Assembly: GCA_029932675.1 (NCBI GenBank)
Contig: JAOZPP010000099.1
Location: 1 to 6,572, forward strand
DNA length: 6,572 nt
Direction of reading: 5' to 3'
From: a bacterium
Lineage (GTDB): Bacteria; SM23-81; DAOVCL01
The position numbers were made by a program, and so were the translations under genes. The notes under the pieces were generated by a model. It was not told the DNA's origin. It worked only from the letters and a program-made list of their open reading frames with translations, and did no database searches. Of the stretch, positions 995 through 6,572 are shown piece after piece. Position 1 is the first letter of the stretch, and every line of letters begins with the position of its first letter.

Positions 995-2695
995 TTAGAC
1001 ATTTTTCTGGCCCCTCTCGATCTTGGCCCAGGTGTCACGCAGGGGAACGGTTCGATTGAAGACAAGCCTTTCCTCGCTCGAGTCAACCGAGTCAACACAA
1101 AAATAACCTAACCTCTCAAACTGGTATCTGTTTCCTGGCGCTGCTCCCCTCAGACTTGGTTCCACCCGGCAGGAGGTCAAGACCTCCAATGAGTTTGGAT
1201 TCAAGTAAGTCTTAAAATCAGCGCCATCCTTCTCACCTACTGGGTTCGCCTTTACAAAAAGCCTATCATACAGCCGTACCTCCACCTCCAACGAGTGGGG
1301 GGCAGAGACCCAATGTAAAGTTCCCCTAACCTTACGCCCATCAGGACTCCACCCACCCTTGGATTGGGGGTCATAGGTGCAATGGAGCTCAACAACTTCG
1401 CCAGTCCTTTTATCCTTAACTACCCCCACACAAGTAATGTAGTAGGCATATCTAAGTCGCACCTCACGCCCAGGGGCGAGCCTGAACCACTTTGGGGGCG
1501 GGTCCTCCCGAAAGTCATCCCGTTCGATGTAGAGCACCTTGGAAAATGGAACCTTCCGCGTCCCCATCTCAGGGTCCTCCGGGTTATTTATCGCCTCTAA
1601 CTCCTCGACCTGGTCTTCCGGATAGTTATCTATTACCAGGCGGAGCGGACGCAACACAGCCATTACCCGGGGGGCCCGTCGGTTCAAATCCTCCCGCAGG
1701 CAATGCTCAAGCAAGGCGATATCCACCATACTGTCTGCCTTAGCGACCCCAATCCTTTCACAGAAGTTTCGAATTGATTCTGGCGTAAACCCCCGCCTCC
1801 GTAAGCCAGAAATCGTCGGCATACGGGGATCATCCCATCCACTCACATATCCCCCTTCCACCAACTCTAAAAGCCTCCGCTTACTCAACACAGTATAACT
1901 AAGATTAAGGCGAGCGAATTCGATCTGCCTGGGGTGATGGATGTCCAACTCATTTAGATACCAGTCATATAATGGGCGATGGTCTTCAAATTCAAGGGTG
2001 CAGATGGAGTGGGTGATTCCTTCAATGGAATCACATTGGCCGTGAGCAAAATCATAGGTCGGATAGATGCACCACTTCTCCCCAGTTCGGTGATGGGGAA
2101 CTTTGAGTATTCTGTACATAACTGGGTCACGAAGGTTCAAATTCCCAGATGCCATGTCAATTTTTGCCCGCAAAACGCGGGAACCATTGGGGAACTCCCC
2201 AGCACGCATTCGTTGGAATAGATCCAGGTTCTCCTCCACCGATCGATCACGATAGGGGCTGTTCCTTCCCGGCTCAGTTAACGTCCCTCTAGTCTCCCGG
2301 ATCTCATCAGCAGTTAAGTCACAGACATAGGCTTTCCCCTTTTTGATCAACTGCACGGCGTACTCATACAATTGCTCAAAGTAGTCCGATGCGTAGAAAA
2401 GCCGGTTGCCCCAATCGAACCCCAGCCAGCGGATGTCCTCTTTGATCGATTCCACATACTCGACTTGTTCCTTGCTTGGGTTCGTGTCGTCAAACCTCAG
2501 GTTGCAGAGACCTTTGTATTTAGCGGCAATACCGAAGTTTAGGCAGATGGATTTGGCATGGCCAATATGCAGGTAACCATTCGGTTCTGGAGGGAAACGG
2601 GTGTGAACCCGCCCACCATATCTGTTTGTTCTTAAATCCTCCTCAATGATATCTTCAATGAAGTTTGTGGGTTGGATGGAATCCTTTGTGGTCAT
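995..2695 (-). CDS. glnS: glutaminyl-tRNA synthetase
   Basis: Class I aminoacyl-tRNA synthetase that charges tRNA-Gln with glutamine using ATP, in the cytoplasm. The 566 residues compare well with about 554 for the E. coli enzyme. The Rossmann catalytic domain starts with [15 protein letters not shown] (residues 35-49, HIGH at 43-46), followed by RFDDTNP (67-73), characteristic of the GlnRS/GluRS family. The KMSKS equivalent is VLSKRR (269-274), the GlnRS-type variant (VMSKR in E. coli). YPTYDFAHG (211-219) and [12 protein letters not shown] (234-245) also favour GlnRS over GluRS. The C-terminal part from about 340 is the two-beta-barrel anticodon-binding region, as in bacterial and eukaryotic GlnRS. 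I see no YqeY-type or other appended domain. A GGGAG ribosome binding site lies about 9 nt before the ATG. Its presence implies direct glutaminylation rather than sole reliance on GatCAB amidation. The call is secure. Confidence 0.97.
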
Positions 2696-2948
2696 CTAAC
2701 CAGTCTCCCTTCTGCTATGGACAGCACCTCAATTCAAATCACTCTTTCATCCCAAGGGGAAAGACCCCTATTCTAAGAAGCCCAATCCCTACCCGAAACC
2801 CAACGCTACTCAGCCACCAGGCGTTAATAGAACCAACCAAAACAAAGGGCTTACGGCCAAAAGTCTCATCGACTTATATCTCCCACCTGGAACGTGCAGG
2901 CAGGGTCTGAGAGAGAATCGGAATTTCTTATAATTCCAAAAGGTAGGG
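2696..2948. other. intergenic region between pncB and glnS, no supported gene
   Basis: These 253 bases should contain the glnS leader, or connect glnS to the pnc operon. I looked for a T-box leader (the AGGGTGG-type antiterminator bulge) on the minus strand and found none. A 6-bp inverted repeat GGAATT/AATTCC (2920-2925, 2932-2937) lies just after the pncB stop but has no U-tract. No clear -35/-10 pair for glnS stands out. Confidence 0.4.
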
Positions 2949-4037
2949 TTAACATCTAACCAACTCCAATCTGGGATTGGGGTTAAACTTCCTCCCCACT
3001 TTGGCACAGGGTTTGCCCTCTACTTGGACTATATCGGCAGTAAAATCTATCTTCTCTTTGAACAATGACGAACCTACTCCTACGGCATCAAAAGGCACTC
3101 CTATTTTGATGAACTCTTCTACTCTCTGCGCATTAAATCCCCCGGAGACTACTATCTTCACCCAGGAGAATCCTTCCGCATCAAGCCTCTTCCTCACCAA
3201 CCAGCAAAGCTCAGGGCAGACCCCAAGGGACTCCTCTCCTTCCGCGGTTACAGACTTATCTCGGAGCTCCTTAGCGGTATCCAACCTTACCCCCCAGAGC
3301 CTCTTACCCATTGCCCTGGCTACGGCTAAGGCGGTGTTCACACAGTCATTTTCAAAGTCCACCAACACTATCCGTTTAATTTTCTCAGGCATCTGACGAT
3401 CGAAGGCTAAGGCCGCCGCTACTGTATCCCCTCGATAAGCGGCTATTAAGCCATGGGGAATGGTGCCCAGGCCCTCTTCCCCCCACCAAGCTCCTTGCGC
3501 ATCGGTGGAAACTCCAGTTGCCCCAGCGACGAAAGCAGCATATCCATCAGTTGTCTGTACCCTATAATGGTCAAACCGGGCAGGAAAGAAGAGAACAGTC
3601 TTCCCTTTTGCGGCCTTAATGACCTTGCTTACAGCCGTAGCTACCGAGGTAGCACGGGCCATAACCCCCAAGTAGACAGTCTCTAAATGCGCAAATGTGC
3701 TATAATCCCCTTCAATGGTAAGAACCGTTTCCCAGGCCTTGATCCTATCCCCATCTCTCAACGCTTTGATAACCAACTCCTCCGACCTCTCTGCACAAAG
3801 GGTGAGGATGGCAATTGCTTCATCTATCCCACAGAGCACACCATCTCGGCGAGGGAAGACCTGCATAAGGACTCGAGGATGATGGTTATCTTTAATCAGA
3901 ACCTCCTTTGTGCGGAGGAAGTACTTGTCGCTATACCAACCGCTCTTTATTTTCTCTACAGGAAGGTTAAAAATATGAGGGGGGAGCCTTTGGCCCCTTT
4001 TCCACTTTGTCCCTCCCTTAGCCAATTTCGGCCCCAT
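2949..4037 (-). CDS. pncB: nicotinate phosphoribosyltransferase
   Basis: Converts nicotinate and PRPP to nicotinate mononucleotide, the committed step of the Preiss-Handler NAD salvage route. The 362-residue length fits the short archaeal/bacterial subgroup (Thermoplasma type) rather than the longer E. coli form of about 400 residues. Visible family motifs are KSGWYSDKYF (31-40), LETVYLG (118-124), RFDHYR (154-159), GTIPHGLIAA (191-200, whose His195 matches the position of the conserved active-site histidine motif), VDFEND (226-231), VRLDT (250-254), VSGGFN (297-302) and VGVGSS (319-324), the last two forming the phosphate-binding end of the type II PRTase barrel. The gene overlaps the end of pncA by 20 nt and has GGAG seven bases before its ATG, so the two are translationally coupled. 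Quinolinate phosphoribosyltransferase is a related fold, but the KSGxYSDKYF start and the nicotinamidase partner favour NAPRTase. Confidence 0.93.
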   Translation of the reverse strand: MGPKLAKGGTKWKRGQRLPPHIFNLPVEKIKSGWYSDKYFLRTKEVLIKDNHHPRVLMQVFPRRDGVLCGIDEAIAILTLCAERSEELVIKALRDGDRIKAWETVLTIEGDYSTFAHLETVYLGVMARATSVATAVSKVIKAAKGKTVLFFPARFDHYRVQTTDGYAAFVAGATGVSTDAQGAWWGEEGLGTIPHGLIAAYRGDTVAAALAFDRQMPEKIKRIVLVDFENDCVNTALAVARAMGKRLWGVRLDTAKELRDKSVTAEGEESLGVCPELCWLVRKRLDAEGFSWVKIVVSGGFNAQRVEEFIKIGVPFDAVGVGSSLFKEKIDFTADIVQVEGKPCAKVGRKFNPNPRLELVRC

Positions 4038-4853: not shown

Positions 4854-4882
4854 TTGACATAGTAAGTCAAAAACCTTATATT
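4854..4882 (+). promoter_or_regulatory. strong sigma70-type promoter of the tRNA-Ser pair
   Basis: A perfect -35 TTGACA (4854-4859), a 17-bp spacer and a -10 TATATT (4877-4882, 5 of 6) lie directly upstream of the first tRNA. The predicted start is near 4889-4890, only 3-4 nt before the mature tRNA 5' end, a usual arrangement for bacterial tRNA genes. It is the best promoter in the window and probably also feeds the downstream cassette by read-through. Confidence 0.8.
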
Positions 4883-4892
4883 TGCCCTGGCT

Positions 4893-4977
4893 GGAGGGTT
4901 AGCCTAACTGGTAAGGCAGCGGACTTGAAATCCGCCGTCCCTTAACGGACTTGGGGGTTCGAGTCCCTCACCCTCCG
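4893..4977 (+). tRNA. tRNA-Ser(UGA), CCA not encoded
   Basis: Acceptor stem GGAGGGT (4893-4899) pairs perfectly with ACCCTCC (4970-4976), with discriminator G4977. The anticodon stem GCGGA/TCCGC (4919-4923, 4931-4935) closes the loop CTTGAAA with anticodon TGA at 4926-4928, reading UCA-type serine codons. A long variable arm with stem GTCC/GGAC makes it a class II tRNA, as expected for serine. The T arm is GGGGG, TTCGAGT, CCCTC with one G-U pair. The bases after the discriminator are CTA rather than CCA, so the 3' end would need CCA-adding enzyme. Confidence 0.95.
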
Positions 4978-4990
4978 CTATGGGCGATTC

Positions 4991-5085
<95 letters not shown>

Positions 5086-5117: not shown

Positions 5118-5825
5118 ATGAGCAACAAGGGTAAAATCTATAAGAACGCTCCTCTTGTCGAGACGGTTTTTGAGATAAGATTCCCAGGGGAGCCAGCAAT
5201 CGAATGTAATAGGGACAAGTTCTATGATAGGGTCAGGAAGGTCTATTCAAAAGTTTTAGTCCCCAAATCATTCGAGAGTAAAGTGCAAGCTTTAGAGCCA
5301 TATAGATTCGAACGAGAGGATGGTACCATAGGAATTATGTTGGCTATCAATAAGATTGCAATATATTGCAGAAAATATATGGGTTTTAAACCATTTAAAG
5401 AAGAAACGATAAGGATACTCTCCATCTTTGGGGAGTTGTTTAAAGTGCAAAAACTTAACAGAACCGGATTACGCTATATAAATATCATACCCTTCACAAG
5501 GGAAAAGGATGTTATCCCTATAGAAAATTATTTGAATATTAAAATAGGGTTGCCGCAATCTATACCAACTAATTTCAAAAATCTAAACATAATATTTGTA
5601 TCCCAGACTGAAGGTGGCAGTATAACAACACGCATTGAACCAGCAATTTCACCGGATAAGACCCAGGAAGTTATCATTTTAGATTTCGATTATGCTAAAG
5701 AAGAAAATTTAACCTTTGGTTCAGTAGACAAATACCTTGATGAAAGCCACCAACATACGAAATATTTATTCGAGGAGCTAATAGCCGACTGTTACAAGAA
5801 GGTAATGCGCGGGGAGGTGATATAA
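5118..5825 (+). CDS. TIGR04255-family protein of unknown function
   Basis: A 235-residue soluble protein. I recognise the pattern of the sporadically distributed TIGR04255 family: the N-terminal NAPLVETVFEIRF (10-22), the central LNRTGLRYINIIPF (113-126), and a C-terminal helix with LDESHQHTKYLFEEL (207-221) ending KKVMRGE (227-233). The length is close to what I recall for the family (about 250). No enzyme motif, signal peptide or membrane segment is visible, and the biochemical role is unknown. The frame runs back into the tRNA (GTG 5055), but that start would translate the tRNA T arm, so ATG 5118 is chosen. No good Shine-Dalgarno site precedes it, only AGGAAAAG about 20 nt upstream. It overlaps the next gene by one base (TAATG), implying coupled translation. 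It is clearly AT-richer than the minus-strand genes, suggesting transfer. Confidence 0.8.
   Translation: MSNKGKIYKNAPLVETVFEIRFPGEPAIECNRDKFYDRVRKVYSKVLVPKSFESKVQALEPYRFEREDGTIGIMLAINKIAIYCRKYMGFKPFKEETIRILSIFGELFKVQKLNRTGLRYINIIPFTREKDVIPIENYLNIKIGLPQSIPTNFKNLNIIFVSQTEGGSITTRIEPAISPDKTQEVIILDFDYAKEENLTFGSVDKYLDESHQHTKYLFEELIADCYKKVMRGEVI
5808..5820 (+). promoter_or_regulatory. strong ribosome binding site inside the end of the TIGR04255 gene
   Basis: GGGGAGGTGA near the end of the upstream gene is an almost complete anti-16S match, about 4-5 nt before the ATG at 5825-5827. This strong site contrasts with the absence of one before the first gene of the cassette, suggesting the HicB-like product is made in larger amounts than the TIGR04255 protein. 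Confidence 0.7.
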
Positions 5826-6253
5826 TGAGTCCTTCATTAGTTGATAGCATTTATGACGATATAAAGGAACGAATGGCATATGTGCCTAAAAACTATATAG
5901 ATTCCAAAGTTAAAGAGGTGGAGACAGCCTCTGCTATTGATCCGCAACGGATTCTCAGCCACATTAAGAAGTATCAGCCAAGTCCCATCTGGAGAATCAA
6001 TGTAGAAACCAAAAAGTTTTATACTCCTAAACCCATAGGAGTGAGAATTTACCGTGATGAGGATTTATTTTTCGCTGAGAATGAAAACCTCGCCGTTTGC
6101 GGTACTGGGGACACCCCGGAAAGCGCCCTCCAAGATCTATGTCTCCATATTACACATTTTTTTGAGTATTACAGAAAAATTGACAGGAGTAAACTTACTG
6201 GTGAAGCTTTAAGGTTAAAAGCACTTTACGAGAACTTACTTATTGAGGAATAG
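5825..6253 (+). CDS. HicB-like protein, candidate antitoxin
   Basis: A 142-residue protein. Residues about 70-115 look like the partial RNase H-like HicB fold: the strand IGVRIYRDEDLFFAENENL, then GTGDTPESALQDL, the xGxTxEEAL turn and helix typical of HicB antitoxins and UPF0150 relatives. A helical stretch follows (116-142, including SKLTGEALRLKALYENLL). The first 60 residues are mostly helical-looking and are not part of a standard HicB. I see no C-terminal HTH or ribbon-helix-helix domain, which many HicB proteins use for autorepression. The gene is coupled to the TIGR04255 gene upstream (one-base overlap) and to the HicA-like gene downstream (one base between stop and ATG). The antitoxin role rests on the HicA-like neighbour and the weak HicB resemblance, so it is a family-level inference. 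Confidence 0.6.
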   Translation: MSPSLVDSIYDDIKERMAYVPKNYIDSKVKEVETASAIDPQRILSHIKKYQPSPIWRINVETKKFYTPKPIGVRIYRDEDLFFAENENLAVCGTGDTPESALQDLCLHITHFFEYYRKIDRSKLTGEALRLKALYENLLIEE

Positions 6254-6254
6254 G

Positions 6255-6572
6255 ATGCAGGTTGAAAGGAAGACAATAGAGTCTAACCTTCCTGCTAAGG
6301 GATTTGTGGTCCAAGAGACCCATCATAAGTATTTTTACCATGAATATCAAGGGCTAAGAACTGGTCCCTATACCTACACATCGCGGGGAAGCAGATATAA
6401 AACTTACGGTACTCCACTACTTAAAAGAATGAAGAAAGAGTTAAAATTAGATAGAATTAGGCAAGTTGTTGATTTGTTTGAGTGCCCAATAAGCGGTGAG
6501 GACTACAACAATATCTTAAAGCCCAAGTTTGACAGTCAAAGGGGCAAAATTGGCCTTGGATGTGTTCTTTGA
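6255..6572 (+). CDS. HicA-like protein, candidate mRNA-interferase toxin
   Basis: A 105-residue protein, complete, with its TGA as the last bases of the window. Residues 1-60 fit the HicA double-stranded-RNA-binding-like fold: helix ERKTIESNLPAKGF (4-17), then strands with THHKYFYHEY (22-31) and LRTGPYTYTSRGS (34-46). The adjacent H23/H24 sit where HicA toxins carry the catalytic histidine. The tail, with LLKRMKKELKL (55-65), a CPISGEDY motif (77-84) and a short basic end, belongs to a longer variant than the classic HicA of about 60-80 residues. TTG 6243 would extend it by four residues, but ATG 6255 has GAGGA five bases upstream and is preferred. Gene order (HicB-like first) is reversed from classic hicAB. 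An RNase toxin is the likely function by family. Activity is not shown by sequence alone. Confidence 0.68.
   Translation: MQVERKTIESNLPAKGFVVQETHHKYFYHEYQGLRTGPYTYTSRGSRYKTYGTPLLKRMKKELKLDRIRQVVDLFECPISGEDYNNILKPKFDSQRGKIGLGCVL

Follow-up and report, generated by a model that had tools for sequence, protein, structure and literature searches.

The locus and its gene products

The window analysed was the whole contig G000:C36 (6,572 bp), which belongs to an assembly of 3.0 Mb in 116 contigs. Two tRNA-Ser genes were followed on the same strand by a cassette of three closely packed genes, and the following features were located.

4854–4882, + strand: sigma-70-like promoter (TTGACA-17-TATATT, 11/12), ahead of the tRNA-Ser pair
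4893–4978, + strand: tRNA-Ser (TGA), predicted by ARAGORN
4991–5082, + strand: tRNA-Ser (GCT), predicted by ARAGORN; 35 bases between its end and the cassette
5118–5825, + strand: gene 1 (P0001), TIGR04255 protein of 235 aa (NCBIfam)
5825–6253, + strand: gene 2 (P0002), HicB-like antitoxin of 142 aa (profile comparison)
5825–6007, + strand: N-terminal extension of gene 2 (about residues 1–61), putative TIGR04255-binding part
6008–6250, + strand: HicB-like domain of gene 2 (about residues 62–142; profile match)
6255–6521, + strand: native part of gene 3 (P0003), HicA-like toxin, residues 1–89 (AF2 model, structural matches and a bridging homologue)
6522–6572, no strand assigned: end of an insertion sequence, which supplies residues 90–105 and the stop codon of annotated gene 3 (repeat at other contig ends)

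The annotated gene 3 ORF covers 6255–6572 (105 aa) on the same strand as genes 1 and 2. As the sequence-only reading had described, genes 1 and 2 overlap by one base (TAATG) and genes 2 and 3 are separated by a one-base gap; ribosome sites of good quality lie ahead of gene 2 (GGGGAGGTGAT) and of gene 3 (GAGGAATAGG). The three ORFs are not a product of chance, since the same genes were present in the same order in a congener and in Omnitrophota genomes. The gene order of the last two had been called reversed, which is literally true relative to hicAB but ordinary, as HicB lay upstream of HicA in 19 of the 24 canonical HicA loci sampled and downstream in 2.

Two promoter-like sites were observed against 0.9 expected, and the strongest was that at 4854–4882, upstream of the tRNAs. 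No terminator-like site was found between the tRNA-Ser genes and the cassette. Because the strongest promoter stands before the tRNAs and no such site intervenes, the cassette is probably co-transcribed with the tRNA-Ser pair. The same tRNA-Ser pair precedes the cassette in congener G001 (ARAGORN), and no repeat of the tRNA-Ser 3' end (an attachment site) of at least 14 bases was found downstream of the cassette there.

The assignment of gene 1 to TIGR04255 held (NCBIfam: E 5.8e-32, 111.5 bits against a cut-off of 30), with the match spanning residues 8–224 of P0001 and positions 2–245 of the 252 in the model. The AF2 model of P0001, built with 47 homologues, had a pLDDT of 90.5 and a pTM of 0.87, and consisted of two consecutive halves, each of four strands plus a helix (beta4-alpha); a search for an internal duplication of these halves at the sequence level gave no signal. 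The family is diverse in sequence, with a mean column identity of 21% (alignment A5), and its most conserved positions include Y87, F218, Y120, I121, R119, P12, E15, D189, H211, N122 and R115.

A known fold was sought for TIGR04255, and the matches (guanidino kinases, AdoMetDC and TBP-like proteins) stayed at background level: guanidino kinases reached Z of about 7 to 8.8, values near 7 came from AdoMetDC and others, and Foldseek gave TBP and START-like structures. A sequence relationship to SecB was also rejected. Profile comparison with six SecB gave p 0.44, neither the whole protein nor either half was similar, and the Pfam SecB search of P0001 gave no match. SecB was not among the matches listed in the fold comparisons, which carries no weight either way.

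P0002 alone had no family match in Pfam, NCBIfam or PADLOC. In profile comparison with 22 canonical HicB it gave p 5.3e-6 and 1.2e-4, reaching p 1e-6 once the G400 pair (L162) was added, while the crossed and unrelated profile controls gave p 0.37 and 0.71; the HicB and HicA sets used here were gathered around Pfam-positive HicA genes. Residues 67–118 of P0002 also matched the HicB adjoining a Pfam HicA in its own genome (E 0.0024). No C-terminal DNA-binding HTH/RHH domain was matched in P0002 by Pfam or NCBIfam. Ahead of its HicB-like domain the protein carries an N-terminal extension of about 61 residues. This N-terminus had no recognisable similarity to other gene 2 N-termini, and no common motif was seen by eye across all of them.

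P0003 alone likewise had no family match in Pfam, NCBIfam or PADLOC, the gathering threshold of PF07927 not being reached. Its AF2 model, built from eight sequences (pLDDT 80, pTM 0.68), showed an alpha-beta-beta-beta-alpha (dsRBD-like) arrangement plus helices at 68–76 and 81–99. The top structural match was 1whz (Z 5.2; titled hypothetical), a HicA homologue, followed by the HicA of E. coli (6hpb_A, Z 4.6), the HicA of B. pseudomallei (6g26_E, 4.1) and that of S. pneumoniae (5yrz_B, 3.7), with the first unrelated structure at Z 2.9. A sequence search of PDB chains gave nothing useful. The HicA profile comparison gave p 0.0014, which became 1.6e-4 with the G400 pair included. Distant relatives of P0003 were found in G380, G166, G037, G305 and one Geminocystis plasmid, and the ORF preceding each of them ends in a HicB-like domain. 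One bridging relative (L023: 5086–5349) matched PF07927 at E 5.5e-4 and 20.4 bits, under the cut-off of 27. The residues G16, F17 and H24 were invariant in nine relatives of P0003; from the alignment, we take H24 to be equivalent to the catalytic His of HicA. Genes 2 and 3 are thus very probably a HicBA-like pair, as had been proposed, HicA being recognised by predicted structure and HicB by profile comparison. The genome that carries the cassette is itself rich in HicA, with 12 PF07927 matches besides the HicA-like gene of the window.

Near-exact copies of the last 51 bases of the window (6522–6572, CCCAAGTTTGACAGTC...) terminate contigs C38, C43, C59 and C4, and a further one lies within C39. 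The element on C39 (L028) is about 1.49 kb long (2527–4013) and has inverted CCCAAGTTTGACA ends and transposase-like reading-frame remnants; we take this insertion sequence to be IS1634-like. Gene 3 is native through codon 89. Intact relatives of P0003 are 94–96 aa long and stop about 6 residues later, with ...ILKDKGLFK or similar. Since 6522–6572 is the end of the insertion sequence and the C-termini of the relatives differ, the last 16 residues and the stop of the gene 3 ORF are foreign. Judged from these bases, the true C-terminus of the toxin is missing in this assembly.

Recurrence of the cassette and the pairs led by TIGR04255

The cassette recurred, with its gene order kept, in congener G001 at 85, 80 and 71% identity and in Omnitrophota AUK132 (L014, G386) at 73, 61 and 76% identity. 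Omnitrophota G400 carried a diverged three-gene set, whose HicA was detected at E 4.4e-23 by a model built without it and had no match to PF07927; its TIGR04255 protein was 38.5% identical, and HicBA cargo with a TIGR04255 protein this distant (about 38%) comes from this one genome. Around the G400 cassette (L178, 18–10000) lie the C-terminal part of a type I restriction subunit, a gene for an NrS-1-like polymerase and an ORF that resembles integrases, which suggests a mobile element. In FCPU426 Zod, the contig starts within the HicB-like gene. Four complete HicBA-type cassettes were thus obtained (own, G001, G386 and G400), all in one TIGR04255 subclade (support 100/99), which also includes L097, a sister with a different pair.

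TIGR04255 was present in 49 of the 386 sampled genomes, and HicBA cargo was found in 2 of these 49; among 193 genomes of the phylum of the Omnitrophota locus, it was found in 2 of the 10 that bear TIGR04255. The TIGR04255 gene is therefore not locked to a HicBA-like pair, as the sequence-only reading had it: only four complete HicBA cassettes were found, and most TIGR04255 genes lead other pairs. Taken nominally, such rare adjacency to HicB and HicA counts against that reading; the idea of a tripartite system nevertheless gains strength from the wider pattern.

From the 386-genome sample 53 TIGR04255 loci were taken, 45 of which had enough flank. A same-strand ORF began within 30 nt after the stop in 43 of the 45 loci; among 112 control genes, 44 had such an ORF (p 7e-12). 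TIGR04255 was usually followed by two genes. Gene 2 was small, variable and antitoxin-like, and came from several unrelated families; one was a Panacea antitoxin (PF13274). Gene 3 families comprised HEPN, PIN, PemK/MazF, HicA, DUF7689 and unnamed families labelled by motif (SQSCDL, NWLEFL, RYIT), and one HEPN family was common to nine loci (PF05168 in L060 and L150). By Pfam, 8 of 29 gene 3 proteins belonged to known toxin families: PIN (PF01850) 4, HEPN 3 and PemK/MazF (PF02452) 1. In the control, at least one PIN was present in 56 flanking ORFs (p 6e-4), a count that covers the best 25 of 55 families listed, so that weak matches could be missed. PADLOC gave weak matches of gene 3 proteins to PDC-M05B and HEPN_IX. 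A simple script served for ORF calling, many loci come from fragmented assemblies, and short flanks affect the number of gene 3 proteins counted.

The same TIGR04255-led arrangement was seen in Omnitrophota and temperate-phage loci. In the Pseudomonas temperate phage VW-6S (L153, 3971–5632), a full TIGR04255 cassette, with a gene 3 of an unnamed family, has the CI repressor on one side and the integrase on the other, and four viral contigs (L165–L168) have a TIGR04255 three-gene cassette. No close relatives of P0001 or P0003 were found in viral contigs. The plasmid search gave one distant HicA relative, in a Class 8-like pair without TIGR04255. On the Rhizobium plasmid pCB3060_2 (L152, 1162–6144), a multiubiquitin/ThiF/DUF6527 operon closely precedes a TIGR04255 cassette, which thus has a ubiquitin-like neighbourhood of the defence type.

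When cargo was mapped on the TIGR04255 tree, which has several long branches and weak deep support, 9 changes were required compared with a mean of 20.4 for shuffled cargo, and none of 200 shuffles was as low. From this it follows that the partners stay together and are exchanged now and then. In L070 and L071, the TIGR04255 proteins are sisters, and the N-terminal 90 residues of gene 2 are homologous (E 9e-8); the remainder of gene 2 in L071 (E 2.6e-25) has its match in L103, as does gene 3 of L071, and the TIGR04255 protein of L103 is distant. This pattern implies that the N-terminus of gene 2 goes with TIGR04255 and the C-terminus with the toxin, so gene 2 looks bipartite. By analogy, P0002 is built in the same way: residues 1–61 precede the HicB-aligned region, and for this reason and by analogy with gene 2 of L070 and L071 they were taken as the putative TIGR04255-binding part.

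The comparison as a whole supports well the suggestion of a tripartite toxin-antitoxin (TA) system, with TIGR04255 leading a compact operon in 43 of 45 loci and with varied toxin families. TIGR04255 is probably a functional third component of TA-type modules.

Proposed mechanism and alternative readings

Our main reading, to which we assign a probability of about 0.5, is that the cassette is a tripartite TA module of a promiscuous TIGR04255-led family, in which TIGR04255 engages the N-terminal extension of the antitoxin. Gene 3 would encode a toxin of the HicA type, near to the Class 8 HicA of Gerdes, and the HicB-type domain in the C-terminal part of gene 2 would neutralise it; we infer both the toxicity of gene 3 and its neutralisation by gene 2. 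TIGR04255, being translated first, would most likely bind the N-terminal extension of the nascent antitoxin and keep the antitoxin folded or stable. If TIGR04255 were lost or titrated, plausibly during phage infection, the antitoxin would become inactive and the toxin would be freed. Chaperone addiction in SecB-dependent toxin-antitoxin-chaperone systems runs along these lines, with another protein and with a C-terminal antitoxin extension. The chaperone-like action proposed here has slightly less than an even chance of being correct, and is an analogy, since the TIGR04255 profile showed no similarity to SecB. The phage locus and the type I restriction and ubiquitin-like neighbours of other cassettes hint, indirectly, at a phage-defence role.

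A different role for TIGR04255 would be that of a sensor or trigger, which recognises a phage or stress signal and then releases or degrades the antitoxin, genes 2 and 3 being self-neutralising. The position of the VW-6S cassette between CI and integrase and the four viral contigs are in keeping with this, as are the TIGR04255 genes near the ubiquitin-like operon and type I restriction, and the diversity of the family is what a sensor might show; however, TIGR04255 lies upstream of the antitoxin gene and is translationally coupled to it, which suggests direct help. The antitoxin N-terminus is conserved along with TIGR04255, which speaks for such help too, although a sensor could give the same pattern. 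We consider the sensor unlikely. That TIGR04255 is instead an enzyme acting on toxin or antitoxin by modification, in the way MntA modifies HepT, appears improbable. Its best structural matches were guanidino-phosphotransferases (Z up to 8.8 over 184 residues, 3.9 A) and it has conserved polar positions (E15, R115, R119, N122, D189, D191 and H211), but the tool states Z values of this size as background where a model has no clear match, two-repeat folds such as TBP-like and AdoMetDC were matched as well, and no nucleotide-binding motif was recognised in TIGR04255.

Genes 2 and 3 might also form a normal two-gene HicBA system, with TIGR04255 as a passenger or independent gene. HicA relatives do occur without TIGR04255, after a long Class 8-like HicB (L024, L025, L026 and L029) or a short HicB (L023). 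Against this, 43 of 45 loci show TIGR04255 in tight coupling with unrelated pairs, the cargo follows the TIGR04255 tree, and HicBA recurs with a TIGR04255 protein of 38% identity (in one genome), so little weight can be given to a passenger. As to the present copy, it may be a decaying remnant whose toxin was inactivated by the insertion sequence, the end of which comes directly after codon 89, with relatives running about 6 residues beyond the junction. This is possible but on balance doubtful, because the HicA core (residues 1–66) and nearly all of the C-terminal helices are kept, and genes 1 and 2 are intact.

For the family as a whole, we regard it as evenly balanced whether TIGR04255 defines an undescribed, phylum-spanning tripartite TA/defence class, in which a promiscuous control protein with no relationship to SecB serves eight or more unrelated antitoxin-toxin pairs by way of exchangeable antitoxin N-termini, so that cells or temperate phages could couple different toxins to a shared signal. 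TIGR04255, a widespread family without an assigned function, gains a testable role in this way. With TA pairs exchanged as cargo behind a constant partner, the question of how multi-gene TA systems gain regulation becomes testable, and the unnamed gene 3 families (e.g., SQSCDL and NWLEFL) become candidate new toxins by association.

Comparison with known systems

In the open-access literature searched (5.39 million papers), TIGR04255 was nowhere found by name, and the main text of the 2024 HicA survey of Gerdes (PMC10865869) contains neither TIGR04255 nor a three-gene class. The cassette shares with canonical HicAB the predicted HicA fold, the HicB-like domain and the tight gene packing. It differs in falling below the Pfam thresholds, in a HicA extended after residue 66, in about 61 additional N-terminal residues of HicB, and in the third gene.

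Class 8 HicA is about 95 aa long, with a dsRBD fold and two extra C-terminal helices, and hicB stands before hicA; Class 8 HicB is 342–356 aa long and has three domains (PMC10865869). The HTH/RHH domain of HicB is limited to Gerdes classes 3 and 4, and Classes 1, 2, 7 and 8 are without it (PMC10865869). The present cassette resembles Class 8 hicBA in the hicB-hicA order, the close linkage and the same layout of the P0003 model, and the relatives in L024–L026 and L029 have a HicB of 312–367 aa; in contrast, HicB here has 142 aa and a separate TIGR04255 gene stands in front. In G380 (L023, 4379–5352), an 88-aa ORF that belongs to no known family stands before a short HicB/HicA pair whose HicA is of the same family, and this may be a further three-gene arrangement.

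The Panacea/NetFlax network consists of two-gene systems only, and multigene systems and HicBA escaped that survey (PMC10440598). The likeness lies in a promiscuous domain that is common to pairs with different toxins. In toxin-antitoxin-chaperone systems (TAC), one SecB-like family controls HigBA, MqsRA and HicAB via variable, partner-specific antitoxin extensions (PMC5105189, PMC6377645). In both cases a single third-component family serves several TA pairs and an antitoxin extension is present; however, the third gene of TAC is SecB-like and the extension is C-terminal, whereas here TIGR04255 comes first and the extension is N-terminal. One apparently true HicAB-type TAC was seen in G028 (L174, 456–1491, reverse complement), where the gene after a HicB with a C-terminal extension is SecB-like and a Pfam HicA lies nearby. 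Tripartite TA organisation itself is already known; what TIGR04255 as a general family would add is a new class of third component.
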